DNA of 64,000 nucleotides from Pedobacter sp. W3I1. Lineage in GTDB: Bacteria > Bacteroidota > Bacteroidia > Sphingobacteriales > Sphingobacteriaceae. The first letter of the stretch is position 1; every line of letters starts with the position of its first letter. This document shows, piece after piece, positions 38,053-64,000 of this stretch. The DNA lies in contig NZ_JAUSXN010000001.1 in the NCBI RefSeq assembly GCF_030816015.1, positions 1,364,001 to 1,428,000 on the forward strand, written 5' to 3'. The position numbers and the translations under genes are program-made. Below the pieces are notes generated by a model, which saw only the letters and a program-made list of their open reading frames with translations, was not told the origin of the DNA and did no database searches.

Positions 38053-39432
38053 CTAGTAACCTGGGTTTTGAACTAAGTTTTTGTTGGCGTCAATTTCACG
38101 TTGTGGAATTGGGAATACTAATCTGGTAGAGTTCCAGGGTAGGCTACCAATATTGGTTTGAGTTCTTTTCGCGTCATGTAATGAAAAGCCTTCAAAAGCA
38201 AATTCTAGTTTTCTTTCATTAAGGATATTTGCCAGGGTAGCAGTTAGTGTTGTTAAGCCAGCCCTGCTTCTAACAGTGGCTAAATCTTGCAATGGTGTTA
38301 CGCCTCCAATAGGAGCAGCCGGAGCTAAGCGGACATTACATTCTGCCCTGATTAGATACATTTCTGCCAATCTGATTACAGGTACATTCCCAAATTGATT
38401 TCCAAATTTGGCCGTAAACATATCGTCATCGTCATAAAAAGCATTAATCCTGTCGTCATCTGTACTATAAGTTGCATCAATCCAATCTTGTGATATCACG
38501 GCATCTCCACGGCCACCAAATGTTGATGAACCATAAAACTCATTAAAACCATTAAACCCGGTTAAAGTTGTTACCTGTATGGCAAAAACATCTTCAGTAG
38601 AATTGTCTCCAGGTTTTGCGGGTCTTCCACTTTCTGGCATTTTAGGAAAAGCATCAAGGTATGTACCTGTTAGTTGATAATTTCCAGAAGCAATCACCCG
38701 GTTTGCAGCTGTTCCGGCCGCGCTATAATTACCCATTTGTAAATAAAGTCTCGCTAGCATTGCAGCTGCTGCAGATTTAGTTGCGAAAAAACCATTAGTG
38801 GCCGGAAGTTTAGCTTCTGCATCCGTTAAATCAGTTATAGCTTGATTGTAAACAGCGGCTACAGTGGCCCTACTTACATAATTTGCTTCGCTTATGAGAT
38901 TAGTTGGTGTTAATACTATAGGTACACCCAAATTTGTAGTTGGAGAGCCATCATTATAGGCTTTCCCAAATAATCTAACCAATTCAAAATATGCCGCGCC
39001 CCTAATAAATTTGGCTTCTCCTTCAACTCTGGTTTTTTTAGCTGCCTCTACTTTATCAAGGGCAGCAATTACGTTATTGGCATCATTAATTGCGGTATAT
39101 CCTGATGCCCAAACGTTATCGACAAAAGTATTTGTTTTTAGTAACGATTTGTTGATTGCCTGGGTTAGCTCCTCATAGGTGCCGAACCATTCAATGGCAT
39201 CGGTATTTGCTAAGAAATCAGTCATTAAAAACGGACGGCCACCAAAAAAATTACGGCTACCGAGATCTGAGTATGCACCAACTAAGGCTCCTTCAACATC
39301 CTTTGAGGTGAGTAAAGCATTCTTTTGCTCAATGGTATCAACAGGATTTATATCGAGTGCTTTCTTGCAGGATGATAAAGCCATCAAAAACATGCAAGTA
39401 AATATGATATTATTTATATATGTCTTTTTCAT
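38053..39432 (-). CDS. SusD/RagB-like nutrient-binding outer-membrane lipoprotein
   Basis: The 459-residue protein has a lipoprotein signal (MALSSCKKALD, Cys at about residue 22) and a SusD-like helical fold with TPR-like repeats (GEAKFIRGAAYFELVRLFG, AAAAMLARLYLQMGNY). The C-terminal part has RLAEMYLIRAECNVR, ERKLEFAFEGFSLHDAKRT and the terminal FPIPQREIDANKNLVQNPGY, typical of the family. It binds oligosaccharide or another ligand at the cell surface for the adjacent SusC, which lies upstream with a 16-base gap. No glycoside hydrolase gene is adjacent in the same direction, so the substrate is not indicated. Confidence 0.93.
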   Translation of the reverse strand: MKKTYINNIIFTCMFLMALSSCKKALDINPVDTIEQKNALLTSKDVEGALVGAYSDLGSRNFFGGRPFLMTDFLANTDAIEWFGTYEELTQAINKSLLKTNTFVDNVWASGYTAINDANNVIAALDKVEAAKKTRVEGEAKFIRGAAYFELVRLFGKAYNDGSPTTNLGVPIVLTPTNLISEANYVSRATVAAVYNQAITDLTDAEAKLPATNGFFATKSAAAAMLARLYLQMGNYSAAGTAANRVIASGNYQLTGTYLDAFPKMPESGRPAKPGDNSTEDVFAIQVTTLTGFNGFNEFYGSSTFGGRGDAVISQDWIDATYSTDDDRINAFYDDDDMFTAKFGNQFGNVPVIRLAEMYLIRAECNVRLAPAAPIGGVTPLQDLATVRSRAGLTTLTATLANILNERKLEFAFEGFSLHDAKRTQTNIGSLPWNSTRLVFPIPQREIDANKNLVQNPGY

Positions 39433-39448
39433 TTTGATTCTTTTTTAA

Positions 39449-42400: not shown

Positions 42401-42538
42401 TGAGTCTTTTACAAATACGCTGACGCCAGGAATTGGTCCTGAGGCTGACGTCACTTTCCCGGTAATTACTTTGCCTTGTGCGAAAGCAAACGAAATTACA
42501 CTAAGAGATAAAATCATACATAAGAGTAGTTTTTTCAT
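39449..42538 (-). CDS. SusC/RagA-like TonB-dependent outer-membrane transporter
   Basis: The first possible start is TTG at 42541; the ATG at 42538 directly follows and is preferred (1029 residues). After the signal peptide (ending FAQG) comes a carboxypeptidase-regulatory-like domain (GKVTSASGPIPGVSVFVK, 25-100), then the plug with SDVVVVGYGTQNKRDVTGSVASV and the beta barrel, ending VISFGINIGL. It imports a substrate captured by the SusD partner, energised by TonB. The pair is in the usual susC-susD order. I saw no anti-sigma factor or hybrid two-component system next to it. Confidence 0.94.
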   Translation of the reverse strand: MKKLLLCMILSLSVISFAFAQGKVITGKVTSASGPIPGVSVFVKDSPSTGTQSDATGAFKLTVSEDAKTLVFSFIGFKTKEVPISGQTINVNLEEENNTLSDVVVVGYGTQNKRDVTGSVASVKSKDLENLPVTSFEQALQGKAAGVQIAAQNGKLGQGITVRVRGAASVTAGSEPLYIVDGIPITSGDFSSTTAPTSALADINTNDIESIEVLKDASASAIYGARASNGVVLITTKQGKVGKTLIQFNALGGISSPSNHRDFLNAEQYVQIERRAGQGQANQDFLNGDYATLQEALDDYSASVEARLNRYSAGNSDYQTYKVNSNWEAASFQDNPVTQQYDLNLTGGNEKTKFYIGGQALDQNGIVIGNSYKRYSGRLNLTNKVTDFLEVGVNLNFSNSINNRLSNDNAFSSPLQSVALSPITPFIDPRSGLISGTLPGAASNYPVYYNPFISVDNAFYKATVYRTIGKAFANINIAKGLKFSTDFSIDNLNQNEESYYGSLTFRNTGTSNGYGQNISTFVINANTNNFFSYNTTVGKSAFDLILGTSYQKSTTKYSTIEGQDFPSDSYIKLGSAATKVIATSNEGAFSFLSYFFRANYKYNDRYLVGFSVRADGSSRFGANNRYGYFPAGSLAWIASEEDFLKQSETISLLKFRASYGLTGNAEIGNYSARGLFAGTGAYGGLPGQVPSRIANPDLTWEKTKQLDIGLDFGILKNRITGVFDFYQKNTTDLLLDVPVPQTTGFSTKTQNLGSLKNTGFELGINTENFVGAFKWSTAITGAVNNNKITNLGGQILNSNEINAAISGQPIGVFYIPEYAGVNPANGDALYYLNTTDASGNVNRSTTTDINQAQRIFAGNPNPKYTFGLNNTFSYKNFDLGIFFQGVKGNKIFNAGGQYMSANASNGYDNQTADQMTYWDKPGDITSVPEPRLFAGNGIGNSTRYLSDGSYVRLKTLTLGYTFPTSVLTKIKLSKLRLYATAQNLLTITGYKGWDPEVNADYQSTNINQGVDFYSAPQPRVISFGINIGL

Positions 42539-42738
42539 CAAATTGTTAGTTTAGTTAATGATGTTTGATAATTGATAGAAATGATACTCTTAATGTAACT
42601 AAAAATAAGTAGAAAACCTTGCGGATTAAGATAAAATAAGGCCGTTGTTTGGTTTAATGCACTCAAATGAAAACAAAAGGTGGCAAAATCTGTTCATAGA
42701 TTTAGAAGTTACTTTTTTTAAATCAAAAAAATACGAAC

Positions 42739-42988: not shown

Positions 42989-44041
42989 ATGGCCGATATT
43001 GCTCAACGGTTTCATCAAAACCCGATATTATCTCCAAAAGATCTGCTACCCAGTAGGAAAGGCCTGGAGATCGTTTGTTTACTAAACCCCGGCGTTTTTA
43101 AGTTTGAAGGAAAAATATGGCTACTGATCCGTGTAGCCGAAAGGCCTGAACAAATGGAAGGTATAATCTCTTTTCCTATTTTAAAGAAACACGGAATAGA
43201 AATTCTAGCGGTTGAAGAAAATGACCCATATTTAAATGCAACCGATCCAAGGATAATTAATTACAAAGGTGCCGATTACTTAACCACACTTTCTCATTTA
43301 AGATTGGTTTGTAGCGATGATGGCATTCATTTTTATCAGCCAGAAGGTCACCCTTTACTTCAGGGAGAAGGCAATGATGAAACGTTTGGAATAGAAGATT
43401 GCCGCGTATCTTTAATTGGCGATACCTATTATTTAACTTATACTGCCGTTTCTGAGCATGGCGTTGGTGTGGGGCTGCGGACTACAAAAGACTGGAAAAA
43501 CTTCCGGCGTTATGGCATGATTATCCCACCCCATAATAAAGACTGCGCGATATTTGAAGAATGCATTAACGGTAAATTTTATGCTTTGCATCGCCCTAGC
43601 AGTGTAGCTTTGGGTGGTAATTATATCTGGCTGGCCGAATCTCCCGACGGAATCCATTGGGGCAAACACAGGTGTATTATTAAAACCAGATCTAACCTCT
43701 GGGATAGTGCCCGTGTGGGCGCCGGTGCAGCACCCATAAAAACCGCAGAAGGATGGCTCGAAATATATCACGGCGCAAATGAAAAACATCAATATTGTTT
43801 AGGCGCATTTCTAATGGATTTAAATAATCCAGGTGAAGTATTGGCCAGAACCGAAGAACCGATTATGGTACCAGCAGCAGATTACGAACTGCATGGTTTC
43901 TTTGGCGAGGTTGTGTTTACAAACGGTCACATCGTTAACGGTGATGAACTAACCATTTACTATGGAGCGGCTGATGAATTTGTTTGTGGGGCTAAATTTT
44001 CGATAAAGGAGATTTTGGAGGCACTGGTTTTTTACCACTAA
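42989..44041 (+). CDS. GH130-like glycosidase / beta-mannoside phosphorylase family protein
   Basis: The 350-residue cytoplasmic protein belongs to the five-bladed propeller group of GH130 and relatives (DUF377): NPGVFKFEGKIWLLIRVAER, DPRIINYKGADYLT, FGIEDCRVSLIGDTYYLTYTA, DCAIFEECINGKFYALHRP, WDSARVGAGAAPIKTAEGWLEIYHGA and YYGAADEFVCGA. The Asp in IEDCR is in the position of the catalytic residue of characterised members. The reaction may be phosphorolysis of beta-mannosides, producing mannose-1-phosphate. The subfamily cannot be assigned from sequence alone. It lies 64 bases downstream of the CsbD gene but behind a terminator. Confidence 0.85.
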   Translation: MADIAQRFHQNPILSPKDLLPSRKGLEIVCLLNPGVFKFEGKIWLLIRVAERPEQMEGIISFPILKKHGIEILAVEENDPYLNATDPRIINYKGADYLTTLSHLRLVCSDDGIHFYQPEGHPLLQGEGNDETFGIEDCRVSLIGDTYYLTYTAVSEHGVGVGLRTTKDWKNFRRYGMIIPPHNKDCAIFEECINGKFYALHRPSSVALGGNYIWLAESPDGIHWGKHRCIIKTRSNLWDSARVGAGAAPIKTAEGWLEIYHGANEKHQYCLGAFLMDLNNPGEVLARTEEPIMVPAADYELHGFFGEVVFTNGHIVNGDELTIYYGAADEFVCGAKFSIKEILEALVFYH

Positions 44042-50249: not shown

Positions 50250-50344
50250 CTTAACTATAACTAATTAATCTCGTAGCTCTTATTAATTTAGTAAAATTTT
50301 GGCCGCATTGCGTAACTAATTATAAACTAAACTAGTGAGTGCCA

Positions 50345-53300
50345 ATGAAAAACATTTTACTCAGGACGACAGGATTCCTATGCCTTGTCCTACTTTCAAG
50401 CCCCCAGTTGTTTGCGAAAATTACGAGCGAAAAAAAGAATTTAAACCGCTACTATTTTCAGCAGGATACAACTAAAAAACAAGACACAACAAAAAAAGTT
50501 CCGGTGGCTAAACCTGCTGATTCGGTAAAAGTACCACCAAACCCGCTTGGTGGTTCGCGCCCGGTGACTGCCCCTGCACCTGCCGCAACTACAACAGCAC
50601 CTGCTACGCCTGCGAGCACTGCTCCTGCAGCATCGGCAGCCCAAAAAACAATTACCGGTACCGTTGTGGATGAGCAAAAAATCGGTTTGCCCGGCGTTGG
50701 GATTAAGATCCAGGGCAAAACAGGTGGTACCGTAACACAAGAAAATGGTAAATTCAGTATCAATGTTACTGCCCCAACCGATGTGCTGTTATTTAGCTAC
50801 ATCGGTTACCAGACTAAATCTGTTCCGGCTGGTAATGGAGCAACGCCGTTAACCATCAATTTAGTACCGTCGCAATCTCAAAAATTAGATGAAGTAGTGG
50901 TGGTTGGTTATGGCACATTAAAAACAAAAGAAGTTACTTCATCCGTTGCCCACGTAGATACTTCCCAATTTAGGCAAAGTGGCGCCCGGAATCCACTCGA
51001 TCTGATCCAGGGTAAAGTTGCTGGTTTAAACCTCACTCGAACGAGTGGTTCAAATCCGAATTCCGGGGTTAATGTACAACTACGTGGGGCAGTAACCGTA
51101 ACAGGAAGCTCTAGCCCTTTATTTGTTATCGATGGAATACCTGGCGGTAACCCCGATCTCTTGCAGCAAGATGATATACTCTCGGTTGATGTACTTAAGG
51201 ATGGTTCTGGTGCTGCAATTTATGGTACCAGTGCAAATGCGGGTGTAATCCTGATCACCACTAAAAAAGGGAAACCAGGTGCGCCACAGTTTAATTACTC
51301 ATCTTATCTCCGTAAAGAATTCATCCAAAATAGATTAGACTTTTTAACTGCAGATGAATTCAGGCAAAAAATTAGCTCAGGAGTATTAGATGCTCAGGAT
51401 TATGGAGCAAGCGAAGATTTGTATGGAAGTTTAATCAATAAAGATAACTTGTCACAAAATCATAACCTATCATTATCTGGAGGTACGAACAATACAAATT
51501 ATCGTGCAAGTTTAAACTACCGGGATTTACAAGGGATTGGACTGGAAAATGGACGAAAAGAATACACCGTTAGGTTAAATGTAAACCAGAAAGGTTTTAA
51601 TGATAAGCTGAATGTTCAAATGAACCTGGCTTCAAACTTTAACAATGCAAATACATTAGGTGGAAGTGGTTGGGAAGAAGAACTGGTTAAAAATCCAACC
51701 AAACGGATTTATAACCCAAACGGAACTTTTTATTTTGATAATCAAAGTACCAATCAATATGCCAGATTACAGCAAGAACGGAACAAAAGAAAACAGCAAA
51801 CAAGTTCGGCAGATATTAAAGCAGATATAGACCTTGCGAAAGGATTAAAGGGATCAGTATTTGGTTCGGTACAGCGTGATAGCTATACCGACGGCGCATG
51901 GGCATCAATTTTTTCTGAACGTTCTGTAGAAGATGCTGATTATCCTGGCGGGGGCTATGCCAGTAAAGGTAATTTTCTTTCTCAAAGTTTTGCACTTGAA
52001 CCGACACTACAATATAATACCATTTTAAAAGAAAAACATTCTATTTCTGCTGTAGCTGGTTATAGTTACCGCTATTATATAGAAGAAGGCCAGTCGGCAA
52101 GTAACCGTGGTTTTATCAATGATCAGTTTCATGAAGATAATTTAACGACAGGTATTGCATTAACTGACGGGAGAGCAACGGCTACAAGTTTTAAAAATGA
52201 CAATACTTTAATTGCATTTTTTGGAAGAGTTAACTATGCCTTCAACAATAAATACCTTTTACAATTGATATTGAGACGTGAAGGCTCTTCAAAATTTGGA
52301 GAAAACAACAAATGGGGAAATTTCCCGGCAGTTTCGGTTGGTTGGAATATATCTGACGAAAACTTCATGAAAAATGTAAAATGGGTAAATTACTTAAAAC
52401 TTAGGGCTGGTTATGGTGTAACCGGTAATTCTGGTTTTGCCAACAATGCTTCGAGGGTAGTTTTAGGTGGTGGAGGAAGATACCTTTATCCTGATGGTTC
52501 GTACAGGGAAACTTATGGTCCAACAACCAATGTTAACCCTGATTTAAAGTGGGAAACCAAAAGAGAGTTAAATATTGGTGCCGATTTTACTTTGTTTAAC
52601 AGCAAATTAACAGGTGCGTTGGATTTATTTAACAGAACAACAAAAGATCTGTTGGATCAGTACACCACTCCACAACCTCCGTATGTATTGTCTAACATTT
52701 ATGCTAATGTAGGTACCATATCTTCTAAAGGTATTGAATTGGCCCTAAGTTATCAGGCAATAAAAAATAAGGATTTTACTTTTAGCATGGACTTTACCGG
52801 AAGTACCTTAAGTAACAAACTGGTAACTTATTCTAACGATATTTTCGACGTCCGGTACAAAACTTTCGGAGGTATTGGTGGATCAGGTGCATTAGGTGAT
52901 GCTATTACCACTTACGAAGGTGCACCATTGGGTGAGTTTTGGGGTAAACGTTTTGCCGGCTTCGATGCTGCTGGAAAATGGCTGTTCTATAACCGCAATG
53001 GGCAAGCAGTACATAACGATCAGATTAATTACTCAAAAGATCCGAACCTTACCGATTTAGCGCTGATTGGTAATGCAATCCCGAAATATTATGCCTCGTT
53101 TACTGCTAATCTAGCTTATAAGAACTGGGATTTCAGAATGTTTGTAAGAGGGAAATTTGATTATCAGATATTAAATACTACGGCACTTTCTTACGGAAAC
53201 CCATCTATAAAAGGTAGTAATTATCTAGCCTCAGCTTTTGATAAGTACAGCCAAATTAACGATACCTACATGTACTCTGATTATTATCTGGAAAACGGTA

Positions 53301-53530
53301 CCAACTTAAAAATCGATGAAATAACTATTGGGTACAACTTTAAATTAAAAACGAAGCTTATCCGCAACCTGCGCCTCTATGCCACCGGACAAAACTTAAT
53401 TACCATAACCGGCTATACAGGTAACGATCCTGATTTTGTTTTGGATACCGGCTTAGGCCCAGGTGTTGATAATCGAAATGCTTATCCAAGTACCAGGTCA
53501 TTCTTGTTTGGTTTAAACCTTGGCTTCTAA
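50345..53530 (+). CDS. SusC/RagA-like TonB-dependent transporter with Pro/Ala-rich linker
   Basis: The frame opens with GTG at 50339, but the ATG at 50345 (MKNILLRTTGFLCLVLL) is preferred, giving 1061 residues. Signal peptide 1-24. Residues about 40-100 are low complexity (QDTTKKQDTTKK, then Pro-, Ala-, Thr-rich), unlike the other SusC in this window. A carboxypeptidase-regulatory-like domain (about 100-180, KTITGTVVDEQKIGLPGVGI), the plug (LDEVVVVGYGTLKTKEVTSSV) and the barrel ending SFLFGLNLGF follow. It imports glycan fragments with the SusD encoded 10 bases downstream. The linker may lengthen the periplasmic reach to TonB or a partner. Confidence 0.94.
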   Translation: MKNILLRTTGFLCLVLLSSPQLFAKITSEKKNLNRYYFQQDTTKKQDTTKKVPVAKPADSVKVPPNPLGGSRPVTAPAPAATTTAPATPASTAPAASAAQKTITGTVVDEQKIGLPGVGIKIQGKTGGTVTQENGKFSINVTAPTDVLLFSYIGYQTKSVPAGNGATPLTINLVPSQSQKLDEVVVVGYGTLKTKEVTSSVAHVDTSQFRQSGARNPLDLIQGKVAGLNLTRTSGSNPNSGVNVQLRGAVTVTGSSSPLFVIDGIPGGNPDLLQQDDILSVDVLKDGSGAAIYGTSANAGVILITTKKGKPGAPQFNYSSYLRKEFIQNRLDFLTADEFRQKISSGVLDAQDYGASEDLYGSLINKDNLSQNHNLSLSGGTNNTNYRASLNYRDLQGIGLENGRKEYTVRLNVNQKGFNDKLNVQMNLASNFNNANTLGGSGWEEELVKNPTKRIYNPNGTFYFDNQSTNQYARLQQERNKRKQQTSSADIKADIDLAKGLKGSVFGSVQRDSYTDGAWASIFSERSVEDADYPGGGYASKGNFLSQSFALEPTLQYNTILKEKHSISAVAGYSYRYYIEEGQSASNRGFINDQFHEDNLTTGIALTDGRATATSFKNDNTLIAFFGRVNYAFNNKYLLQLILRREGSSKFGENNKWGNFPAVSVGWNISDENFMKNVKWVNYLKLRAGYGVTGNSGFANNASRVVLGGGGRYLYPDGSYRETYGPTTNVNPDLKWETKRELNIGADFTLFNSKLTGALDLFNRTTKDLLDQYTTPQPPYVLSNIYANVGTISSKGIELALSYQAIKNKDFTFSMDFTGSTLSNKLVTYSNDIFDVRYKTFGGIGGSGALGDAITTYEGAPLGEFWGKRFAGFDAAGKWLFYNRNGQAVHNDQINYSKDPNLTDLALIGNAIPKYYASFTANLAYKNWDFRMFVRGKFDYQILNTTALSYGNPSIKGSNYLASAFDKYSQINDTYMYSDYYLENGTNLKIDEITIGYNFKLKTKLIRNLRLYATGQNLITITGYTGNDPDFVLDTGLGPGVDNRNAYPSTRSFLFGLNLGF

Positions 53531-53540
53531 ACTTACTACT

Positions 53541-55211
53541 ATGAAAACTAATTTAAAATATATTTTATTGCTTGCGCTTGCGGGATTTACATTTTCCTGT
53601 ACAAAGCTTGATGAAAACGCTTACGATCAAATCCCAGCTGATAAATTTTATACCAATAAAAATGAAGTATTATCTGCTGTTTTACGTCCTTATACCCATG
53701 CCAACGCCTGGGTTACACCGTCAGGACAGAATGGATGGTGGCGCATGGCCGAACTTTCTGCCGATCAACTTGCATGGCCCACTAAAGGCCCGCATGGAGA
53801 AGATGGCGGTCAGTGGAAAAGGTTACATTATCATACCTGGACGGTAGACGAAGATGGATATAACAATGCATGGAATTTAATGTACTGGGGTATGGGCTTA
53901 TGTAACAGTCCGATTCAAAATTTGGAAAGCAGAAGTATTAGCGAAATGGGGATTACCCAAGCGGAAAAAGATTCTTTTATTGCAGAATTGAAACTTCTGA
54001 GGGCATTTCACTATTTGAAACTGATGGATTTATGGGGGAATATTCCAATTAGTACCACGGTACCTGTTGGTAGTGTACCCACGAGCGATTACCCGGCAAC
54101 ATCAAGCAGACAACAGGTTTTTGCTTTTGTTGAAAAAGAAATAAAAGAAAATATCGATAAGGCGCCTAAACTCTCGAGGCAGATGTTAGGCCGGATGTCT
54201 CAGGCAGGGGGCTATGCGATGCTCGTGGATCTCTATTTAAATGCTGAAGCCTGGACCGGAACTGCCCGTTGGGATGATTGTATTGCTGCGGCAGATAAGC
54301 TAATCAACGGTGAGGCTGGTGGTCAAAACGGAGCTATGGCCTTGGATCCAAATATTTTAGATCAATTTAAGAATACCAACGATTTATCGAAGGAAGTTAT
54401 CTTTTCGGTGGCTTACGATTATAAAAGAGCCAATTTTGAACCAGCTTTTGCTGCAGATTTTTTTCACTTCGCCCAAAAAGATATCTATGGTGGTGGCCGA
54501 AATGGTAACGATGGGGTGGTTGTGATTCCTGGTGTTTATAACACTTTTAAGAATGAAGATTTAAGAAAAAAAGAATGGTTACTTATTGGTCCTCAGTTTA
54601 AATTTTCTAATCCAAAGCAACCTGTAGAGGGAACGGTAGAATATGCTGGTAAACCCCTTGTTTTTGTTGATAATATTCAAAAGAACTCAAAAAATTCAAC
54701 TGTTTCTACAATGAGCGAAGGTGAAGAAAATAGTGGTGTTCGTTTTAATAAATATAGGTTGGGTAATTCAATTGCTGGTTTTGTAGTTAACGGTGCAGAT
54801 ACTGTTGCCGTTCAGCCCGATCCGAATTATAACAATACCGATTGGAACATTTACCGCCTTACCTGGATTTATTTTGCCAAAGCAGAAGCAATCATGCGTA
54901 AAAATGGTGGTGTTGCAACTGCCGATGCTGTAGCATTAATCAATACCTGTAAAAAGAGGGCATATACTGAAGCTACCTGGCCATCTCATGAGTATACAAC
55001 TGCTTCATTATCTTTAGATGAACTGTTGGCCGAAAGGGGAAGAGAATTTATTTTCGAAGGATTTAGAAGAGACGATCTGATCCGTTTCGGCAAATTTACT
55101 ACAGCTGAGTGGTGGGACCATAGACCATCCTCAGCTTTTAGGAATTTATATCCGATTCCACAAAGACAGAGAGACTTAAATACGAAACTCACCCAAAACC
55201 CCGGATATTAA
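53541..55211 (+). CDS. SusD/RagB-like outer-membrane lipoprotein
   Basis: The ATG at 53541 starts MKTNLKYILLLALAGFTFSCTK, with a lipobox ending at Cys20. The frame's TTG at 53520 lies inside the upstream gene and is rejected. The 556-residue protein shows the SusD pattern: ELKLLRAFHYLKLMDLWGN, AGGYAMLVDLYLNAEAW, TWIYFAKAEAIMRKN, ERGREFIFEGFRRDDLIRFG and the terminal YPIPQRQRDLNTKLTQNPGY. It binds substrate at the surface and closes over SusC. Followed by a terminator, then the lacI-type gene. Confidence 0.94.
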   Translation: MKTNLKYILLLALAGFTFSCTKLDENAYDQIPADKFYTNKNEVLSAVLRPYTHANAWVTPSGQNGWWRMAELSADQLAWPTKGPHGEDGGQWKRLHYHTWTVDEDGYNNAWNLMYWGMGLCNSPIQNLESRSISEMGITQAEKDSFIAELKLLRAFHYLKLMDLWGNIPISTTVPVGSVPTSDYPATSSRQQVFAFVEKEIKENIDKAPKLSRQMLGRMSQAGGYAMLVDLYLNAEAWTGTARWDDCIAAADKLINGEAGGQNGAMALDPNILDQFKNTNDLSKEVIFSVAYDYKRANFEPAFAADFFHFAQKDIYGGGRNGNDGVVVIPGVYNTFKNEDLRKKEWLLIGPQFKFSNPKQPVEGTVEYAGKPLVFVDNIQKNSKNSTVSTMSEGEENSGVRFNKYRLGNSIAGFVVNGADTVAVQPDPNYNNTDWNIYRLTWIYFAKAEAIMRKNGGVATADAVALINTCKKRAYTEATWPSHEYTTASLSLDELLAERGREFIFEGFRRDDLIRFGKFTTAEWWDHRPSSAFRNLYPIPQRQRDLNTKLTQNPGY

Positions 55212-55218
55212 TTTTGAT

Positions 55219-55254
55219 ACAAAAGGCGCTTCAAATAGCGCCTTTTGTTGTTTT
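55219..55254 (+). terminator. Rho-independent terminator after the susCD pair
   Basis: ACAAAAGGCGC and GCGCCTTTTGT form an 11-bp perfect stem with an 8-base loop, followed by TGTTTT. It separates the susCD transcript from the regulator gene. Confidence 0.92.
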
Positions 55255-55408: not shown

Positions 55409-56413
55409 ATGAAATCGCTTTCTATCAAAGATATAGCCGTAAAAGCAAATGTATCCATTACCACAGTTTCGTTCATTATTAACGGTAAAGCAAAAGAGAA
55501 ATCGATAAGCGAAGCAGTAATAGAGAAAGTAGAAAAAATTATCGAAGAAAGCGGTTATAAGCCTAATCAGATTGCAAGAAGTTTAAGAACCGGTAACTCC
55601 AATATTATTGGTCTAATTATCGAAGATATTTCCAATTCATTCTTCTCCAGGATTGCAAGGTTAATCGAAGATAAAGCTTATAAAAGAGGATATAAAATCA
55701 TTTATTCCAGCACAGAAAACAGTATCGAAAAAGCGAAGGAACTGATTAACATGTTCAAATCGCGAAAAGTTGATGCCTATATCATCTCTCCCATAAAAGG
55801 AATAGAAGAGGATATTCAGATGCTTCTTGATGATGGAAACCCGGTAATCCTGTTTGATAGAAATTTGCCGGACATTAATACCAGCTACGTTGGCGCCGAT
55901 CATTTTAATGCTTCATACCAATCCATACAGAGTTTTATCGATCAAGGTAAAAAGAATATTGCCTTGGTTACCACTGATATAAATGTGGAACAAATTATTG
56001 AGCGATACGATGGTTATAAAAAAGCATTAGAGGATAACGGAATCAAATATGATGACAGCCTGGTTTTAAAGATTCATTTTAATCAGGAAGAGAGCGAGAC
56101 CATTGCTCAGATTAAAGAACTCTTAGAAAATAAACAAATCGATGCAGTATTATTTGCAACCAATTATTTGGCAATTAGTGGCTTAAAAGTGTTAAAAAAG
56201 ATCAATAAGAAAATAGGCGACGACTTTGCTGTTATTGCCTACGATGATCATGAAGCTTTTGAACTGCATACGCCTGGTATCTCAACGGTTCAACAACCAC
56301 TCGAAGAAATTGCAGAAAATGTAATTAAGCTAATTCTTAAACAATTGTCGACCAAAACTAAACCGGAGAAACAGGAAATCATTATTCCGGCTAAATTAAT
56401 TATAAGGGATTAA
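55409..56413 (+). CDS. LacI family transcriptional regulator
   Basis: The 334-residue protein has an N-terminal helix-turn-helix and hinge (SIKDIAVKANVSITTVSFIINGK, residues 4-26; NQIARSLRTGNSNIIGL, 52-68) and a periplasmic-binding-protein-like sensor domain (about 62-330). It is a one-component regulator that binds a small sugar or sugar phosphate and controls the neighbouring locus. It sits between susCD and the enzyme genes in the same direction. Perfect or near-perfect TAAAACG-centred palindromes lie on either side of it. Confidence 0.93.
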   Translation: MKSLSIKDIAVKANVSITTVSFIINGKAKEKSISEAVIEKVEKIIEESGYKPNQIARSLRTGNSNIIGLIIEDISNSFFSRIARLIEDKAYKRGYKIIYSSTENSIEKAKELINMFKSRKVDAYIISPIKGIEEDIQMLLDDGNPVILFDRNLPDINTSYVGADHFNASYQSIQSFIDQGKKNIALVTTDINVEQIIERYDGYKKALEDNGIKYDDSLVLKIHFNQEESETIAQIKELLENKQIDAVLFATNYLAISGLKVLKKINKKIGDDFAVIAYDDHEAFELHTPGISTVQQPLEEIAENVIKLILKQLSTKTKPEKQEIIIPAKLIIRD

Positions 56414-56623: not shown

Positions 56624-59068
56624 ATGAGAAACTTTTCCTTAGTAGCGCTTTGTCTTTTTTTTAATTTAATTACAAAAGCTCAGGATAAGGCACCTGCCTA
56701 TCCGTTAATTACGCACGATGCTTATTTCAGTATTTGGTCTTTTGGTGATGGGCTTAATCAATCGGTAACTAAACATTGGACAGGGAAGGAGCAATCTTTG
56801 CTGGGTATTATTAAGGTAGATGGGAAATTTTACCGGTTTTTAGGCGAAGAAAGCAAAACCTTTAAAGAAATACTCCCAACTGCTGATGCATTAAAATACC
56901 AGGCTAGTTACAGTTTCGATAAACCTGAAGCGGGCTGGGAAAATAACAGTTACAATGATAATGCCTGGAAAAAAGCTGAAGCCCCTTTTGGAGACGATAA
57001 TTCTGCCAGGACAAAATGGAATAGCGACGATCTTTACTTTAGGAGAACCTTCGATATAGCCAATGTATCGGCTGCAAAAAAATACCTTAAACTCAATCAT
57101 GATGATAATGTAATTGTTTATTTAAACGGTAAAGTAATTTACAAAAAGAACGGATGGGTTTCTGATTATATCTACTTACCCATTGAGGATGGTATCTTAA
57201 AAACAGGAAAAAACGTATTGGCAATCCATTGTAAAAATACAGCAGGTGGCAGGCATTTAGATGCTGGAATTGTAGAAGAAGATGCACAGAATGTAAAAAT
57301 TGCTTCAGCTACCCAAACCCATGTAAGCATCGAGGCTACCACTACAAAATATACTTTTGCGGCAGGTAATATAGAATTGCAGGTGAGTTTTACTTCGCCA
57401 TTGTTGCTTAACGATATCAAATTAACCGCCAGACCAATCAGTTACATCAATTATGCTGTAAAATCAACAGATGGTAAGTCGCACGGCGTAGATATTTTCT
57501 TTGGTGCATCATCTAACCTGGCTGTAAATACGCCAAACCAAAGTGTTTCGGCATGGAAGAATTCGAAAAACAATCTCTCCATCTTAAAAATAGGAACCGT
57601 AGAGCAGCCGGTGTTAAAGAAACGGGGAGACGATTTGCGTATTGATTGGGGCTACTTATATGTTGCCGTTCCTGCCAGGTTTAATGCCACTCAATTTATA
57701 GCTACGCAAAACGAAAGCTTAAAAAGTTTCGTCGATTCCAAATACCCTACACAAGCACAGGTTTTAAATTCGAAAAACCTGAACCTAAGCAGTATTATTC
57801 CTTTCGGTTCGGTTTCTTCAACCCCGGTAGATAAGTATATGATGTTGGGTTATGATGACCTAAAATCGGTTGAATACTTTGGCGAAAAGCTGCCACCAGT
57901 TTGGAGACTTTCGGGTAGTCAACAGTTTGAAGATCAATTGGCCGAGGCCAATGCTCAATACCCTTTGTTAAAAACTAAGTGCGCCACTTTCGATGCTAAA
58001 TTATATGCCGACGCAGAAAAAGCAGGGGGAAAAGAATATGCTGATATGTGTAAATTAGCTTATAGACAAGCTATTGCAGCGCACAAAATCGTATACGCTC
58101 CTAATGGAGATATCCTGTTCCTATCAAAAGAAAATTTTAGTAATGGATCAATCAATACGGTAGATGTAACTTATCCATCAGCGCCACAATTTTTAGTTTA
58201 CAATCCTGAATTGTTAAAAGGAATGTTGAATGGTATTTTCTATTATTCAGAAAGCGGAAAATGGAAGAAACCGTTTGCAGCACACGATTTAGGTACTTAT
58301 CCATTAGCAAACGGCCAAACCTATGGTGAAGATATGCCTGTAGAAGAGGCTGGAAATATGATCATATTAACTGCTGCAATTACCAGGGCAGAAGGTAATG
58401 CAAAATATGCCGAGAAACATTGGGAGGTAATGTCGGTATGGGCTAATTATTTATTAAGGGAAGGATTTGATCCTGCAAACCAGCTTTGTACCGATGATTT
58501 TGCCGGTCATTTAGCCCGTAATGCAAATTTATCGGTAAAGGCGATTGTGGCATTGGGTGCCTATGCACAAATGGCACAGCAACTGGGTAAAACCGATGTA
58601 GCAACCAAATATAGATCTGCTGCTTTGCAAATGGCACAGAATTGGATGAAAATGGCCGATGATGGTGACCATTATGCCTTAACCTTCAATGATAAAAATA
58701 CCTGGAGCCAGAAATATAATTTGGTTTGGGATAAACTTTTAAAACTGAATCTTTTTCCAAAAGAGGTTTATAAAAAGGAGATTAACTTTTATTTAACCAA
58801 ACAAAAAGATTTCGGATTACCATTGGATAGTCGTAGAACTTACACCAAATCTGACTGGATTATGTGGACTGCTACTTTGGCCGATAACGAAGTCGATTTT
58901 CAAAAATTTATCAGTCCGATATACCGTTTTGCTACCGAAACAGAAAGTAAAGTGCCGTTGAGCGACTGGCATGAAACCACCAATGGAAAAATGACAGGTT
59001 TTCAGGCGAGAAGTGTTGTTGGTGGTTATTTTATCAAAATGTTAGCCGATAAATGGAATATTAAATAG
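56624..59068 (+). CDS. Exported glutaminase A-like protein (DUF4964/DUF5127/DUF4965/DUF1793) with inserted jelly-roll domain
   Basis: The 814-residue protein has a signal peptide (1-19, ending TKAQ). It then follows the DUF4964 pattern (PAYPLITHDAYFSIWSFGDGLN) and an inserted segment (about 88-220: GWENNSYNDNAWKKAEAPFGD, VIVYLNGKVIYKKNGW, GKNVLAIHCKN) resembling the sugar-binding jelly roll of GH2-type enzymes. DUF5127 and the alpha/alpha-toroid C-terminal region come next (about 460-810: YADMCKLAYRQAIAAHKIVY, GTYPLANGQTYGEDMPVEEAGNM, CTDDFAGHLARNANLSVKA). Fungal relatives include glutaminase A, but in Bacteroidota PULs such genes accompany glycan degradation, so a glycosidase-type activity should be considered. 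Followed by the unknown gene after 33 bases. Confidence 0.85.
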   Translation: MRNFSLVALCLFFNLITKAQDKAPAYPLITHDAYFSIWSFGDGLNQSVTKHWTGKEQSLLGIIKVDGKFYRFLGEESKTFKEILPTADALKYQASYSFDKPEAGWENNSYNDNAWKKAEAPFGDDNSARTKWNSDDLYFRRTFDIANVSAAKKYLKLNHDDNVIVYLNGKVIYKKNGWVSDYIYLPIEDGILKTGKNVLAIHCKNTAGGRHLDAGIVEEDAQNVKIASATQTHVSIEATTTKYTFAAGNIELQVSFTSPLLLNDIKLTARPISYINYAVKSTDGKSHGVDIFFGASSNLAVNTPNQSVSAWKNSKNNLSILKIGTVEQPVLKKRGDDLRIDWGYLYVAVPARFNATQFIATQNESLKSFVDSKYPTQAQVLNSKNLNLSSIIPFGSVSSTPVDKYMMLGYDDLKSVEYFGEKLPPVWRLSGSQQFEDQLAEANAQYPLLKTKCATFDAKLYADAEKAGGKEYADMCKLAYRQAIAAHKIVYAPNGDILFLSKENFSNGSINTVDVTYPSAPQFLVYNPELLKGMLNGIFYYSESGKWKKPFAAHDLGTYPLANGQTYGEDMPVEEAGNMIILTAAITRAEGNAKYAEKHWEVMSVWANYLLREGFDPANQLCTDDFAGHLARNANLSVKAIVALGAYAQMAQQLGKTDVATKYRSAALQMAQNWMKMADDGDHYALTFNDKNTWSQKYNLVWDKLLKLNLFPKEVYKKEINFYLTKQKDFGLPLDSRRTYTKSDWIMWTATLADNEVDFQKFISPIYRFATETESKVPLSDWHETTNGKMTGFQARSVVGGYFIKMLADKWNIK

Positions 59069-59101
59069 CCGTTGCAAGCATAAACCTTAAAGTATAAATA
59101 T

Positions 59102-61282
59102 ATGATCTTCTTTAAATCCTGTACATTAATTTCGTTATCCATTGTTACTTTTGCTTTGCATAACGATGTTTTTGCACAGGTAAAATCTAAAGAAAAAACT
59201 TCTTTCCAGGTTTCAGCACCCTGGAGTCCTGATTATGATGTGAGATCGGATATTGCAATGGTTTATGGCATAAATGATGGCAAGGTGAGTTTCGAAGAAC
59301 GTGTAAAAGGCTATCGGGATAAAGGGTATGAAGTTCAGTTTATGACGGGTATTGCCTGGGGGCAGTATCAAGATTATTTCCTGGGGGAGTGGGATGGAAA
59401 AAACCATTTAGATGAAGGCCAGGTCATGCAGAATGGCGAAACCATCTGGCATGGGAATAATGTTCCTTATACTGTTCCATCGGCAAGTTATCGGGCTTAT
59501 ATGAAAACCCATGTAAAAAGGGCAATTGACGCTGGTGTAAGTGCAATTTATCTGGAAGAACCTGAGTTTTGGGCAAGAGCAGGTTACGGTGAAGCTTTCA
59601 AAAAAGAATGGCAAAAATTTTATGGTACGCCCTGGATGCCCCAGCACGAATCGCCGGAAGCAACCTATCTGTCTTCAAAATTAAAATATCAGCTTTATTT
59701 TAATGCCTTAAAAGAGGTTTTTAGCTATGTTAAAAGTTATAGTTTAAGCAAGGGCAAACGCGTTAAATGTTACGTGCCCACCCATTCCTTACTCAATTAT
59801 TCTTCCTGGCACATTGTAAGTCCCGAAGCCAGTTTAGCTAATCTTGATGGCATGGATGGTTATATCGCTCAGGTATGGACAGGTACTTCACGTGAGCCTG
59901 TTTTCTACAATGGAAAAAGTAAAGAACGTGTTTTCGAAAACGCCTTTCTCGAATATGGATCGATGGTTTCGATGACCGCCCCAACAGGAAGAAAAATATT
60001 CTTTTTAACCGACCCGATAGAGGATAGGGCAAGATCATGGGACGATTACAAAGTGAATTATCAGGCCACTTTTACCGCAGAACTATTGTACCCTATGGTT
60101 GATAATTATGAGGTAATGCCATGGCCAAACCGCATTTATAAAGGTAAGTTTGTTGTAGAAGGCATGAAAGAAAAACAACCAATTTCGCCTGATTATGCCA
60201 CACAAATGCAGGTAATGGTGAATTCGCTCAACCAGATGCCCTTGTCTAAAAATAAATTGAACGGTAGTCAGGGGATAGGTGTTTTGCTATCAAACTCTTT
60301 AATGTTCCAGAATTTTCCAACACACCAGGGCTACAGCGATCCTTATCTTTCCAATACTTACGGCTTGGCTGTTCCATTATTAAAACATGGTATTCCGGTT
60401 GAAACAGTGCACATCGAAAACCTCGCCAATAAGAATACCTTGAAAGACATCAAGGTATTGATCATGAGTTATTCGAACATGAAACCTTTAAGTGCCGAAT
60501 ATCATGAGCTATTGACAAAATGGGTTAAAAGTGGGGGGGTACTTTTATATTTTGGAAGAGATAATGATCCTTTCCAAAACATTAAAGAGTGGTGGAATAC
60601 AAACGGAAATACATTCAGGGCTCCATCTGAACATCTTTTCGGTATGTTGGGAATAAACCCAACAACTACCGATTCGGCCTATAAAGTGGGTCATGGTAAA
60701 GTATATGTGGTCAGGAAAGATCCAAAAGAATTGGTCATGAAAGCCAATGGAGATACCGATTTCATCTCCACACTTAAAGCCGCTTACGAAACGGATGCAA
60801 AAGCTGGAGAACTAATCATCAAAAACAATTTTGTGTTAAACCGTGGGCCTTTTGTTATTGCCGCTGTAGTAGATGAAAGTCCAAGCAAAGAGCCATTAAA
60901 GCTATCTGGAAGTTATATCGATCTTTTCAATCCTGAATTGCCGATCTTAAACCAGAAAGTAATCGATCCAAAAACACAAGCCTATCTTTTCGACCTCAAT
61001 AAAATCGAAAATAAAAATAAACCACAGGTTTTAGCCGCCGCATCAAGAGTAACTGGTGAGATTATTGATCAAAATGGATACAGCTTTATCGCGAAGAGTC
61101 CGGCAAATACCAACAACATCATGCGCATTTTATTACCTGCAAAACCGGTAGCAATTACCGCAAAAACTAATGGGAAAAATTTAGTGCTCAGTAAAAATGA
61201 GTGGGATAACCAATCGAAAACACTGCTTTTGGGATTCGAAAATTATAGCGAGGGTGTAACCGTTAACATCAGCTTAAAATAA
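59102..61282 (+). CDS. Exported protein of unrecognised family, putative TIM barrel plus GATase-like domain
   Basis: The 726-residue product has a signal peptide (1-26, ending VFAQ). Residues about 45-360 look like a TIM barrel: beta-strand-like blocks IAMVYGIND, YEVQFMTGIAWGQYQ, GVSAIYLEEPEFWARAGYG (acidic residues E152, E153, E155), KGKRVKCYVPTHS, LDGMDGYIAQVWTG and RKIFFLTDP. Residues about 440-500 (VLIMSYSNMKPLSAEYHELL, KWVKSGGVLLYFGRDND) resemble the trimerisation (GATase-like) domain of GH42 beta-galactosidases. The C-terminal part is beta-rich. The layout suggests a glycoside hydrolase-like enzyme with the acidic EEPE cluster as catalytic candidate; no family can be named. It lies between the DUF4965 and GH92 genes in one operon, 33 and 19 bases from them. 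Confidence 0.7.
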   Translation: MIFFKSCTLISLSIVTFALHNDVFAQVKSKEKTSFQVSAPWSPDYDVRSDIAMVYGINDGKVSFEERVKGYRDKGYEVQFMTGIAWGQYQDYFLGEWDGKNHLDEGQVMQNGETIWHGNNVPYTVPSASYRAYMKTHVKRAIDAGVSAIYLEEPEFWARAGYGEAFKKEWQKFYGTPWMPQHESPEATYLSSKLKYQLYFNALKEVFSYVKSYSLSKGKRVKCYVPTHSLLNYSSWHIVSPEASLANLDGMDGYIAQVWTGTSREPVFYNGKSKERVFENAFLEYGSMVSMTAPTGRKIFFLTDPIEDRARSWDDYKVNYQATFTAELLYPMVDNYEVMPWPNRIYKGKFVVEGMKEKQPISPDYATQMQVMVNSLNQMPLSKNKLNGSQGIGVLLSNSLMFQNFPTHQGYSDPYLSNTYGLAVPLLKHGIPVETVHIENLANKNTLKDIKVLIMSYSNMKPLSAEYHELLTKWVKSGGVLLYFGRDNDPFQNIKEWWNTNGNTFRAPSEHLFGMLGINPTTTDSAYKVGHGKVYVVRKDPKELVMKANGDTDFISTLKAAYETDAKAGELIIKNNFVLNRGPFVIAAVVDESPSKEPLKLSGSYIDLFNPELPILNQKVIDPKTQAYLFDLNKIENKNKPQVLAAASRVTGEIIDQNGYSFIAKSPANTNNIMRILLPAKPVAITAKTNGKNLVLSKNEWDNQSKTLLLGFENYSEGVTVNISLK

Positions 61283-61301
61283 TAAACACAAACACACACA
61301 A

Positions 61302-63569
61302 ATGAAACTTAAATTAATCACATCAATCTTATTTTGCATTGCCGCCAAAGGGTTATTGGCGCAGCAAAAGGATTGGGTTCACTATGTTAACACACTGCAG
61401 GGAACCAATTCTAAACACGAACTCACGCGGGGGAATACCTACCCAACAACTGCCTTGCCTTTTGGAATGCATACCTGGACCCCCCAAACCGGTAGAAATG
61501 GTGATGGCTGGAAATATCAATATGCTAAAGATAAAATCAGAGGTTTTCAGCAGGCACACCAATGCAGCTCGTGGACAAGGGATTATGCCGTATTTTCTTT
61601 AATGCCAATGGCTGATGAGCTAGTAGTTGACGAAAATAAACGCGAAGCAAAATTTAGCCATAAAGATGAGATTGCCAAACCAAACTATTATAAAGTAACG
61701 TTCGAAAACGAGATCACCACAGAGATTTCGCCATCAGAGCGTGGTGCGCACCTCCGTTTCAGCTATCCAAAAGGCAAAAGAAGTTTTTTGATTTTAGATG
61801 GTTATACCAGATTGAGCGGCGTTCAGCTCTATCCCAAAGAAAATAAAATAACTGGCTGGATAAACAACGGCGAAGGTTTTAAAAGAGGTTGGAAAAGTTA
61901 TTTCGTAATCCAGTTCGATCAACCAATTAAATCTTATGGCACCTGGGAAAACAAACGTAATACGGTAAATAAAGACTCTCTCTCAGCCGAAGGGTTGGGA
62001 AAAGGTGCATTTGTTCAGTTCGAATCAGGATCAAAAGTTCAGGTTAAAACGGCTTCATCCTACATCAGTTTAAAACAGGCCGAACTCAATTTAAAAAGAG
62101 AATTGGGCAACGATAAAACGTTAGAAGATACCAAAGCCAATGCCGCTGCGGTATGGAATAAATCGCTGGGTAAGGTAGAAGTAGAAGGCGGATCGAAAGC
62201 AGATATGGAAACTTTTTATTCTTGCTTTTTTAGGGCAAGCCTGTTCTCCAGGAAGTTTTACGAGCTAAATGAAGCCGGAAAACCATATTATTTTAGTCCT
62301 TATGATGGTAAAGTACATGATGGATATATGTTTACTGATACGGGTTTCTGGGATACCTTTCGTGCACAATTTCCACTAAATACACTGGTGCAGCCAGAAA
62401 TGCACGGTCGTTATATGCAGGCCATGCTCGATGCTTACGAGCAATGCGGTTGGTTGCCGTCCTGGTCTTTTCCTAGCGAGGCAGGAAGCATGATTGGGAA
62501 CCACGCTATTTCTTTATTGACCGATGCCTGGGCAAAAGGAATCAGAACATTTGATCCGAAAAAAGCGCTAGATGCTTATTATCACGAAGCAATGAACAAG
62601 GGGCCATGGGGCCCGGCAAATGGCAGGGATGGCGTAACCGAGTATAATCAATTGGGCTATGTACCATATCCAAAATATCGGGAGGCTACCGCTAAAACAT
62701 TAGAATATGCTTATGATGATTATTGCGCTTACCATTTGGCTAAAATGATTGGCGATAAACATTATATGGATGTTTTTGAGAAACCAATGTTCAATTATAA
62801 AAATGTTTACGATCTATCTACCCGTTTTATGAGGGGTAGGAACGCGGAGGGAAAATGGTCTCCAAATTTCGACCCAACAGAGTGGGGAGGGCCATTTACC
62901 GAAGGAAATGCATGGCACTGGCAATGGTCGGTTTTTCAGGATACCAAAGGCCTGATTAATCTGATGGGCGGATACAACAATTTTACGGCAAAGCTCGATT
63001 CTGTTTTTAGCGAACCTAATAAAGTAAATGTAGGTTCGTATGGAGGGATGATTCATGAAATGACCGAAATGGTAATGGCTAACATGGGGCAATATGCCCA
63101 TGGTAACCAACCTATACAACATATGGTTTATTTATATAATTATGCTAACCAGCCGTGGAAAGCACAATTTTATGCTCGTGAGGTGATGCGTAAACTTTAC
63201 AATGCTACAGAAAATGGTTATCCGGGAGATGAAGACCAGGGGCAAACTTCATCGTGGTATGTGTTAAGCGCACTAGGGTTTTATAGTGTAACGCCGGGTA
63301 CAGGAGAGTATGTTTTAGGAAGCCCTATGTTTAAAAAAACGACCATTAATTTAGAAAATGGCAAAAAGTTTGTCATTGAGGCACCTGCCAATAATATTAC
63401 CAATGTTTATATAAAATCGGCAAACTTAAATGGTAAAAATTACACCAAAAATTTTATAAACCATAGCGATTTGTTAAAAGGAGGGGTGTTAAAATTAGAG
63501 ATGAATGTTAAACCTTCGTTAAATAGAGGGTTATTGGAAGAAGATAAGCCATTTTCGCTCAGTAAATAG
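61302..63569 (+). CDS. GH92 family exo-alpha-mannosidase
   Basis: The 755-residue protein has a signal peptide (1-21, ending LLAQ) and the GH92 pattern: VNTLQGTNSKHELTRGNTYPTTALPFGMHTW, GFQQAHQCSSW, YFSPYDGKVHDGYMFTDTGFWDTFRAQFPL and the active-site stretch PGDEDQGQTSSWYVLSALGFYSV (about 640-660). GH92 enzymes are calcium-dependent inverting alpha-mannosidases that trim mannosyl residues from yeast mannan or N-glycans. GH92 usually has NDD/NED-type residues near the end; here DED takes that place. It ends the enzyme operon. The ROK kinase gene, 71 bases downstream, would phosphorylate the sugar released. Confidence 0.93.
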   Translation: MKLKLITSILFCIAAKGLLAQQKDWVHYVNTLQGTNSKHELTRGNTYPTTALPFGMHTWTPQTGRNGDGWKYQYAKDKIRGFQQAHQCSSWTRDYAVFSLMPMADELVVDENKREAKFSHKDEIAKPNYYKVTFENEITTEISPSERGAHLRFSYPKGKRSFLILDGYTRLSGVQLYPKENKITGWINNGEGFKRGWKSYFVIQFDQPIKSYGTWENKRNTVNKDSLSAEGLGKGAFVQFESGSKVQVKTASSYISLKQAELNLKRELGNDKTLEDTKANAAAVWNKSLGKVEVEGGSKADMETFYSCFFRASLFSRKFYELNEAGKPYYFSPYDGKVHDGYMFTDTGFWDTFRAQFPLNTLVQPEMHGRYMQAMLDAYEQCGWLPSWSFPSEAGSMIGNHAISLLTDAWAKGIRTFDPKKALDAYYHEAMNKGPWGPANGRDGVTEYNQLGYVPYPKYREATAKTLEYAYDDYCAYHLAKMIGDKHYMDVFEKPMFNYKNVYDLSTRFMRGRNAEGKWSPNFDPTEWGGPFTEGNAWHWQWSVFQDTKGLINLMGGYNNFTAKLDSVFSEPNKVNVGSYGGMIHEMTEMVMANMGQYAHGNQPIQHMVYLYNYANQPWKAQFYAREVMRKLYNATENGYPGDEDQGQTSSWYVLSALGFYSVTPGTGEYVLGSPMFKKTTINLENGKKFVIEAPANNITNVYIKSANLNGKNYTKNFINHSDLLKGGVLKLEMNVKPSLNRGLLEEDKPFSLSK

Positions 63570-63640: not shown

Positions 63641-64000
63641 ATGGAAAAGCCTGTTGCATTAGGTGTAGATATTGGCGGCTCGCATATTACAGCCGCATTG
63701 GTGGATTTGGAAACAAGAACTTTGGTGAAGAATTCTATCAAACGTAGCCCTGTGAACTCACAGGAGAACAAAGAAGTGATTTTATCGGCTTGGTGCGATA
63801 TTATTAATAAAGCTTTTCAGAATATAAACGGCACTAGGAATGTGGGCATAGCCATGCCCGGGCCATTTAACTATGAAGAAGGAATTTCATTAATTAAAGA
63901 TCAGGATAAGTTTAAATCGCTTTACCAGGTTAATGTGAAAGAAGAGTTGGCTAAACGATTGGATATTCCTGTCGAAAATATTCATTTTATAAATGACGCT
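63641..64000 (+). CDS. ROK family sugar kinase, 5' part only (cut by the window end)
   Basis: The frame starts MEKPVALGVDIGGSHITAALVD, with the ATP-binding phosphate-1 motif DIGGSH, and continues through GIAMPGPFNYEEGISLIKD to VENIHFINDA at the last base, 120 residues in all. The AMPGP block is typical of ROK glucokinase/mannokinase-type proteins. The zinc-binding and catalytic Asp region lies outside the window; FINDA probably starts the catalytic motif. Likely substrates are glucose, mannose or allose. The gene runs in the same direction as GH92. Confidence 0.85.
   Translation, partial: MEKPVALGVDIGGSHITAALVDLETRTLVKNSIKRSPVNSQENKEVILSAWCDIINKAFQNINGTRNVGIAMPGPFNYEEGISLIKDQDKFKSLYQVNVKEELAKRLDIPVENIHFINDA

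Follow-up and report, generated by a model that had tools for sequence, protein, structure and literature searches.

A candidate new glycosidase family encoded beside a GH92 mannosidase gene in Pedobacter sp. W3I1

The locus and its 726-residue protein

The window considered here, 64,000 nucleotides of the forward strand of Pedobacter sp. W3I1 (NZ_JAUSXN010000001.1, positions 1,364,001 to 1,428,000), encodes a 726-residue protein that is a good candidate for a new glycosidase family, where new means unassigned in Pfam, NCBIfam and the sequences of the PDB. Its gene belongs to a run in the order SusC, SusD, LacI, a DUF4965-type protein, the 726-residue protein, a glycoside hydrolase (GH) of family GH92, and ROK; 33 bp separate it from the DUF4965-type gene upstream and 19 bp from the GH92 gene downstream. 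An earlier note, made from the sequence alone, had given the open reading frame exactly (59102-61282, 726 residues, ATG start, + strand) and had named a DUF4965 protein and a GH92 mannosidase as its neighbours, both of which were matched by Pfam (DUF4964/DUF5127/GtaA_6_Hairpin and PF07971).

50339..53530, + strand: SusC-type TonB-dependent receptor (PF13715, PF07715, PF00593)
53541..55211, + strand: SusD-type glycan-binding protein (PF07980, 3.8e-25, scanned as 53550-55211)
55219..55248, + strand: terminator-like hairpin of 12 pairs, 3' of SusD (pattern scan)
55409..56413, + strand: LacI-type regulator (PF00356, PF13377)
56624..59068, + strand: DUF4964/DUF5127/GtaA six-hairpin protein of a proposed glycoside hydrolase type (PF16334 DUF4964, PF17168 DUF5127, PF16335 GtaA_6_Hairpin)
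59102..61282, + strand: 726-residue protein without family assignment (open reading frame, ATG start; no Pfam or NCBIfam match)
61302..63569, + strand: GH92 α-mannosidase (PF07971, 3.6e-160)
63641..64000, + strand: ROK-family gene, continuing past the window end (L154:2442-3314, PF00480)

The closest named relative found, from Pedobacter sp. ISL-64 (L001), is 95% identical and lies in the same gene order. Base differences between the two genes number 25, 14 and 206 at codon positions 1, 2 and 3; with 206 of the 245 at third positions, this is a real, conserved gene under purifying selection. Judged by eye, the N-terminus is Sec-like (K5, hydrophobic residues 8-19, VFA-Q at 23-26), in agreement with the signal peptide proposed earlier, and most Bacteroidota members of the alignment have signal-like N-termini as well. 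Lipoprotein-like N-termini were picked out by a loose pattern in 10 of 102 distinct members, so cellular location may differ among them.

Scans of the protein against Pfam (2025) and NCBIfam (June 2026) returned no family at E ≤ 1, and the earlier note had likewise been unable to name one. Individual scans of 48 members at E ≤ 10 brought up 14 families, none of them strong. DUF4350 (13 of 48 members, best 0.0018), GLMA_2nd (4 of 48) and GH42M (1 of 48) are sub-threshold matches that would fit the predicted fold; chance-like families, e.g., LNS2_PITM1-3 in 4 of 48 members, also occur among the weak matches. A profile of the 48 members found no credible match among all PDB sequences (best E 0.09). 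For comparison, a ten-sequence GH42 profile run on the same set finds GH164, GH35, glucosaminidase-type enzymes and, weakly, β-amylase; the silence of the 48-member profile is weaker evidence than it seems because its diversity is low (effective number of sequences, Neff, 2.5). A known non-hydrolase family was rejected as an identity for the protein, no strong or credible match to one having appeared in Pfam, NCBIfam or PDB sequences. A second copy of the family was not found in the same genome at E ≤ 0.01.

Pfam and NCBIfam need not cover every CAZy family, and the protein could belong to one that CAZy has already numbered. We consider this doubtful: there is no model in NCBIfam of June 2026 or Pfam of 2025, the PDB search stopped at the E-value just given, RefSeq calls a Paenibacillus member 'hypothetical protein', and no family of such a kind is named in the titles and abstract openings that searches of the open PMC library listed.

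The upstream neighbour is of a type that PMC9668830 calls DUF4965, a name used there for the domain set DUF4964/DUF5127/GtaA_6_Hairpin and gone from current Pfam. The available text of that report proposes the group as glycoside hydrolases on the basis of activity-based labelling and describes weak β-galactosidase activity, on p-nitrophenyl galactoside (pNP-Gal), for a Streptomyces homologue. In the window's copy a BetaGal_ABD2 match (1.2e-5) covers residues 104-206, between DUF4964 and DUF5127. The downstream GH92 enzyme has 2wzs and 2wvx, a putative α-1,2-mannosidase, as its nearest solved relatives.

Predicted fold and conserved carboxylates

The 726-residue protein was modelled with AlphaFold on a 48-row alignment, with a pLDDT of 92.9 and a pTM of 0.91 for the whole chain. 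Its parts are as follows.

59102..59176, + strand: likely Sec signal peptide, residues 1-25 (by eye; low pLDDT in the model)
59189..60241, + strand: (β/α)8 barrel, residues 30-380 (AlphaFold models)
59555..59566, + strand: EEPE, residues 152-155, at the end of strand 4 (148-152) (model; conservation)
60011..60025, + strand: DPIED, residues 304-308, at the end of strand 7 (298-304) and in the loop after it (model; conservation)
60254..60871, + strand: α/β domain like the GH42 trimerisation (GATase-like) domain, about residues 385-590 (model; sub-threshold DUF4350, GH42M)
60872..61279, + strand: C-terminal all-β region, about residues 591-726 (DSSP of the model)

Foldseek comparison of the whole model with the PDB gave mostly glycoside hydrolases, with GH42 β-galactosidases first (from 5.7e-16; TM-scores for GH42 about 0.5) and a β-1,2-glucosyltransferase, GH164, GH167 and GH112 next. 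VIA aligned 514 residues with 1kwg (Z 22.1, root-mean-square deviation (rmsd) 4.1, 10% identity), model 32-631 against 1-644 of 1kwg, these ranges being the first and last aligned residue only. Fold matches mostly stop near residue 635, and the last ~90 residues are barely covered. For a barrel-only model (pLDDT 84.9) the top VIA match was again GH42 (Z 21.6, rmsd 3.3, 309 aligned), with PgaB tied at 20.7. The TIM barrel and GATase-like second domain that the earlier note had read from the sequence are thus borne out by AlphaFold, Foldseek and VIA.

With GH42 (1kwg, 4uzs) the predicted model shares the overall fold and domain order over residues ~30-635, the three-domain architecture of barrel, trimerisation domain and β domain, and a Glu at the end of strand 4. 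Unlike GH42, it has no PF02449 match and shows 7-13% identity in structural alignments; strand 4 carries Glu-Glu (102/102 members) in place of Asn-Glu, and strand 7 ends in Asp304. In the 10 GH42 sequences compared, D-N-E is invariant. Simple membership of GH42 was rejected on the profile and on the strand-4 motif. The same genome has two full-length and two partial PF02449 matches, all outside the gene for the 726-residue protein.

Other enzymes with this architecture are known. The GH164 β-mannosidase Bs164, a Bacteroides enzyme for mannosides, has the same one (Z 19.0 by VIA); unlike the protein described here, with which it has no sequence match, its catalytic pair is Glu160/Glu297 on strands 4 and 7 (PMC7105311, available text). 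GH164 was not matched by the 48-member profile at E ≤ 10, though it is in the PDB set and is found by the GH42 profile (2.7e-14). The 'GH42-like' exo-carrageenase GH167, matched by Foldseek as 9whd, forms a family of its own, with the architecture of GH42 at <20% identity; it differs in its Glu residues, which overlay the GH42 pair, and in its carrageenan loci (PMC6923384, available text). A GH167 sequence is absent from the PDB matches of the 48-member profile, its presence in that set being unchecked. The GxGYxYP family, tried as an alternative hydrolase of polysaccharide utilization loci (PULs), was set aside since its barrel has seven strands and its domains come in a different order (PMC4071793, available text).

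The barrel strands, counted by us in DSSP order, are 33-37, 51-55, 77-83, 148-152, 222-227, 253-259, 298-304 and 336-340. The acidic EEPE cluster to which the earlier note had drawn attention (E152, E153, E155) lies at the end of strand 4. Its three Glu residues are the same in all 102 distinct members, a set that leaves out exact duplicates, the partial L078 and L080, and L081, a copy of the window; D304, D308, E337 and W341 are equally invariant. E307 is kept in 101 members. D304, E307 and D308 form a second conserved acidic cluster after strand 7, additional to the one in strand 4, and strand 8 carries E337 and W341. Of 107 invariant positions, 75 fall in the barrel (residues 30-380). The catalytic set probably extends beyond E152/E153/E155 to D304; in the model, either D304 or E307 could be the second catalytic residue, and the enzyme could be either retaining or inverting. 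That the barrel is catalytically dead and only binds glycans seems extremely improbable, its strand-4 and strand-7 carboxylates being kept from Bacteroidota to Paenibacillus.

The (β/α)8 barrel of clan GH-A is present in the predicted models and its strand-4 Glu corresponds to E152/E153 by DSSP strand order; where the clan has a strand-7 Glu, the strand here ends in the invariant D304, with E307 three residues on. The protein could nevertheless be a classical GH-A retaining exo-β-glycosidase (β-galactosidase, β-mannosidase or β-galactofuranosidase) far in sequence from GH42, with E307 or D304 as nucleophile, and we give this a real if clearly less than even chance. The GH42 architecture of the predicted model points that way, as do the precedents of GH164, GH167 and the GH5 β-mannosidase Op5Man5, members of clan GH-A whose sequences have little in common with GH42 although the architecture is the same (PMC7105311, PMC6923384 and PMC8233224, available text). 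The weak β-galactosidase activity of the Streptomyces homologue of the neighbouring protein (PMC9668830) would also suit it. All three precedents have a Glu nucleophile, however (in Op5Man5 the residues on strands 4 and 7 are both Glu; PMC8233224), and the Asp at the end of strand 7 argues against the assignment, as does the replacement of the GH42 strand-4 Asn-Glu by Glu-Glu. Cwp19, a barrel with GH42 among its reported structural relatives, has Gly at the strand-7-end position (PMC5765458, available text).

Relatives, gene neighbourhoods and co-occurrence

In a phylum-wide sample the family was found in 4 of 395 genomes, that of the window included. Within the taxonomic family to which the window belongs, 65 of 251 genomes are carriers. 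Two of these have fragments only (G632:C22:372548-372697 and G728:C1:284948-285277). Second copies occur in G719 (C1:446860-449070, where one open frame of 770 residues gives two separate matches) and in G770 (C2:669674-671891, split across two frames). Records labelled Phycisphaerae and Ignavibacteriaceae, both metagenome-assembled genomes (MAGs), also have the family, and a single one of 72,556 plasmid records does. No copy was found in the phage set, and none in viral contigs scanned with two peptide patterns.

Carriers are enriched in mannan enzymes across the 251 genomes. GH76 (E ≤ 1e-20) is present in 60 of 65 carriers versus 58 of 186 non-carriers (Fisher p 6e-19), and GH125 (E ≤ 1e-50) in 63 of 65 versus 108 of 186 (p 1e-10). 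The GH76 association persists within genera: among the 171 GH125-positive genomes, joint occurrence was 58 observed against 45.1 expected (p 5e-6). These tests ignore phylogeny below the genus and include no unrelated-family control in the 251 genomes.

Gene neighbourhoods were compared in 82 loci: that of the window, one taken from an additional genome, and the best 80 of 98 candidates (retrieved with six peptide patterns, and a biased sample). At most 8 kb of flank was used, less for L082 and where contigs were small; for the window it ran from 44000 to the end. Labels come from hidden Markov models of these loci's own clusters (E ≤ 1e-10), so divergent neighbours can be missed. GH92 occurs in 41 of the 82 flanks, GH76 in 26, GH125 in 15, the DUF4965-type protein in 26 and SusC with SusD in 39. 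At least one of the three mannan families is present in 47 loci, at least two in 26 and all three in 9. GH92 (26 loci) and GH76 (21 loci) are the commonest directly adjacent same-strand labelled families. At 70% identity the proteins, window and copies not added, form 19 clusters, and nine of these include one or more members with a mannan enzyme. The proposal that the protein works on the same glycan as GH92, drawn earlier from gene order at a single locus, is to this extent strengthened by an association seen beyond it, though not at every locus.

The window's SusC/SusD and GH92 genes resemble those of fungal α-mannan PULs in Salegentibacter Hel_I_6 and Bacteroides thetaiotaomicron (PMC9213526), and the relatives' loci resemble them further in often having GH76 and GH125 and in some cases GH43. 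The available text of that report lists GH92, GH43, GH125, GH2 and GH76 as the PUL enzymes and mentions no protein of this kind.

A homologue from another phylum is encoded by Paenibacillus cellulositrophicus (NZ_CP045296.1, WP_152403512; 40% identity over 96%). It keeps E152, E153, E155, D304, E307, D308 and E337. Upstream of its gene are a GntR-type regulator, two permeases and a solute-binding protein of a sugar ABC transporter; a sugar-importer operon in another phylum gives independent support for a role in sugar metabolism. As annotated, with a TTG start, the Paenibacillus protein has no evident signal peptide and is apparently cytosolic. Phosphorylases are usually cytosolic, and GH112 and a β-1,2-glucosyltransferase, of similar architecture, are among the Foldseek matches; together with the Asp at the end of strand 7 this raises a glycoside phosphorylase or transglycosylase as an alternative. 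The signal-like N-termini of most aligned Bacteroidota members make that very unlikely.

Several features of the locus and its surroundings deserve mention. The SusD start given above is an ATG picked by us within a TTG-started open reading frame (53520-55211). The 197-bp spacer between SusD and LacI contains the terminator-like hairpin, which may divide SusCD from the enzyme genes; the scan found 9 such sites against a mean of 13.3 in shuffles, i.e., no enrichment overall. About 12-15 kb upstream of the enzyme run, a GH130 mannoside phosphorylase gene (PF04041 5.3e-52, 42989-44041) stands beside another SusC/SusD pair (38053-42541). The stretch past the window end (L154:4629-18627) encodes one more SusC/SusD pair together with two BSP peptidases and a further GH92, and after these a 3-keto-disaccharide hydrolase and a cytochrome-c-like protein; the peptidases hint at glycoprotein substrates. 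Between the SusD and BSP-peptidase genes of this next cluster lies a 323-residue protein (L154:9736-10707, C1:1434935-1435906 of the genome) with no Pfam match at E ≤ 0.01. In mannan-type loci of the relatives, a protein of 699-703 residues encoded near the query family (cluster c17, 4 loci; L015:10213-12321, L017:12781-14880) is another PUL protein without family assignment; it has no Pfam match, and its L015 copy has no credible match in the PDB (best E 0.067).

Proposed function

The best explanation of the whole is a secreted, probably periplasmic, glycosidase with a barrel, α/β domain and C-terminal β region as in GH42. Its active site would lie at the C-terminal face of the barrel; there E153 (or E152/E155) of strand 4 would donate the proton, and D304 of strand 7, with E307/D308, would serve as nucleophile or general base. 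Acting in exo mode, it would remove a terminal or side-chain sugar that blocks the GH92/GH125 mannosidases from imported oligosaccharides of fungal-type α-mannan or galactomannan. That the protein acts on a glycosidic bond is highly probable, and a fungal-type mannan or related mannosylated glycan is its reasonably likely substrate; the explanation with every part as proposed stands at about an even chance. The structural neighbours comprise both α-specific and β-specific enzymes. The weak activity of the DUF4965-type Streptomyces homologue on pNP-Gal makes capping β-galactose or galactofuranose residues of fungal galactomannan an attractive, if unproven, target; β-mannose may be another.

A number of observations weigh against this explanation. 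With the barrel alone, Foldseek places GH191 (ranks 1-10) and PelA-type α-galactosaminidase barrels (11 and 13) before GH42 (29), with GH114 (26), β-amylase and other barrels also ahead. With the GH191 and GH114 α-galactosaminidases and the PelA hydrolase domain the likeness is one of the barrel, by Foldseek; those proteins are single-domain chains of 250-290 residues and are not among the 50 VIA matches shown for the barrel, where absence (as for GH99) excludes no family. A GH99-like E-x-x-E motif made up by E152/E155 is a further, speculative possibility. Domain order suggests a GH42-like protein; the clan is not settled by the barrel alone, for which the VIA and Foldseek rankings differ. 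Profile-profile comparison with GH42 is weak, at 10% probability for the whole protein, 0.2% for the barrel and a suggestive 27% (E 7e-4) for the second domain; the hhalign alignment of barrel with barrel is visibly shifted around EEPE, so no residue mapping was taken from it. A profile search of the window's own genome, a single contig of 6.4 Mb with, for scale, seven GH92 loci (one in two pieces), found no GH76 endo-α-1,6-mannanase over the cut-off, which makes it one of five carriers without GH76 and sets it apart from the α-mannan PULs. Its sole GH125 is ~2 Mb from the locus. In the Paenibacillus stretch (12 kb each side, incomplete gene table) no gene is annotated as a mannosidase. The shared glycan predicted from gene order finds no echo in 35 of the 82 loci, whose fetched flanks have none of GH92, GH76 and GH125. 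Judged by title, 18 of these 35 records are Bacteroidales-type MAGs, and some of the 35 contigs are short; among the others are Hymenobacter, Niabella, Chitinophaga, Ferruginibacter, two Pedobacter and a Phycisphaerae MAG.

These 35 loci raise the alternative of a glycosidase for a non-mannan glycan, e.g., one containing rhamnose, fucose or arabinofuranose, the mannan link being a frequent coincidence of mixed loci. In Niabella (L026, L028, L031) two genes of the DUF2961 (GH172) type stand in place of mannosidases, and L028 has DUF6786 and L-fucose isomerase genes, with the same clusters in L026 and L031; a second substrate class is possible there. A GH106 rhamnosidase is found in L037, and the Paenibacillus locus with its ABC transporter fits as well. 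The persistence of the GH76 co-occurrence within genera, and the predominance of GH92 and GH76 among directly adjacent genes, make a non-mannan substrate unlikely for the family. A different departure from precedent would be a new glycoside hydrolase family whose GH42 scaffold has a Glu-Glu-Pro-Glu/Asp-Pro-Ile-Glu-Asp carboxylate set in place of the Glu/Glu pair of clan GH-A, and another mechanism, possibly inverting or α-directed, acting on a fungal mannan linkage that the families of the locus leave uncut; this is conceivable, if on the unlikely side.

In the fungal mannan loci of Bacteroidota, GH76, GH92 and GH125 are well studied. The family described here is present in roughly one in four genomes sampled from the window's taxonomic family (65/251) and is statistically tied to GH76, yet it has no Pfam or NCBIfam model. 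A further GH42-like enzyme with little sequence similarity to GH42 has precedent, since GH164, GH167 and Op5Man5 turned up earlier; a strand-7 Asp would go beyond them. If active, the protein would fill an unassigned step in the breakdown of fungal cell wall or mannoprotein, and it would probe whether a GH42 scaffold is compatible with catalysis when strand 7 ends in Asp.

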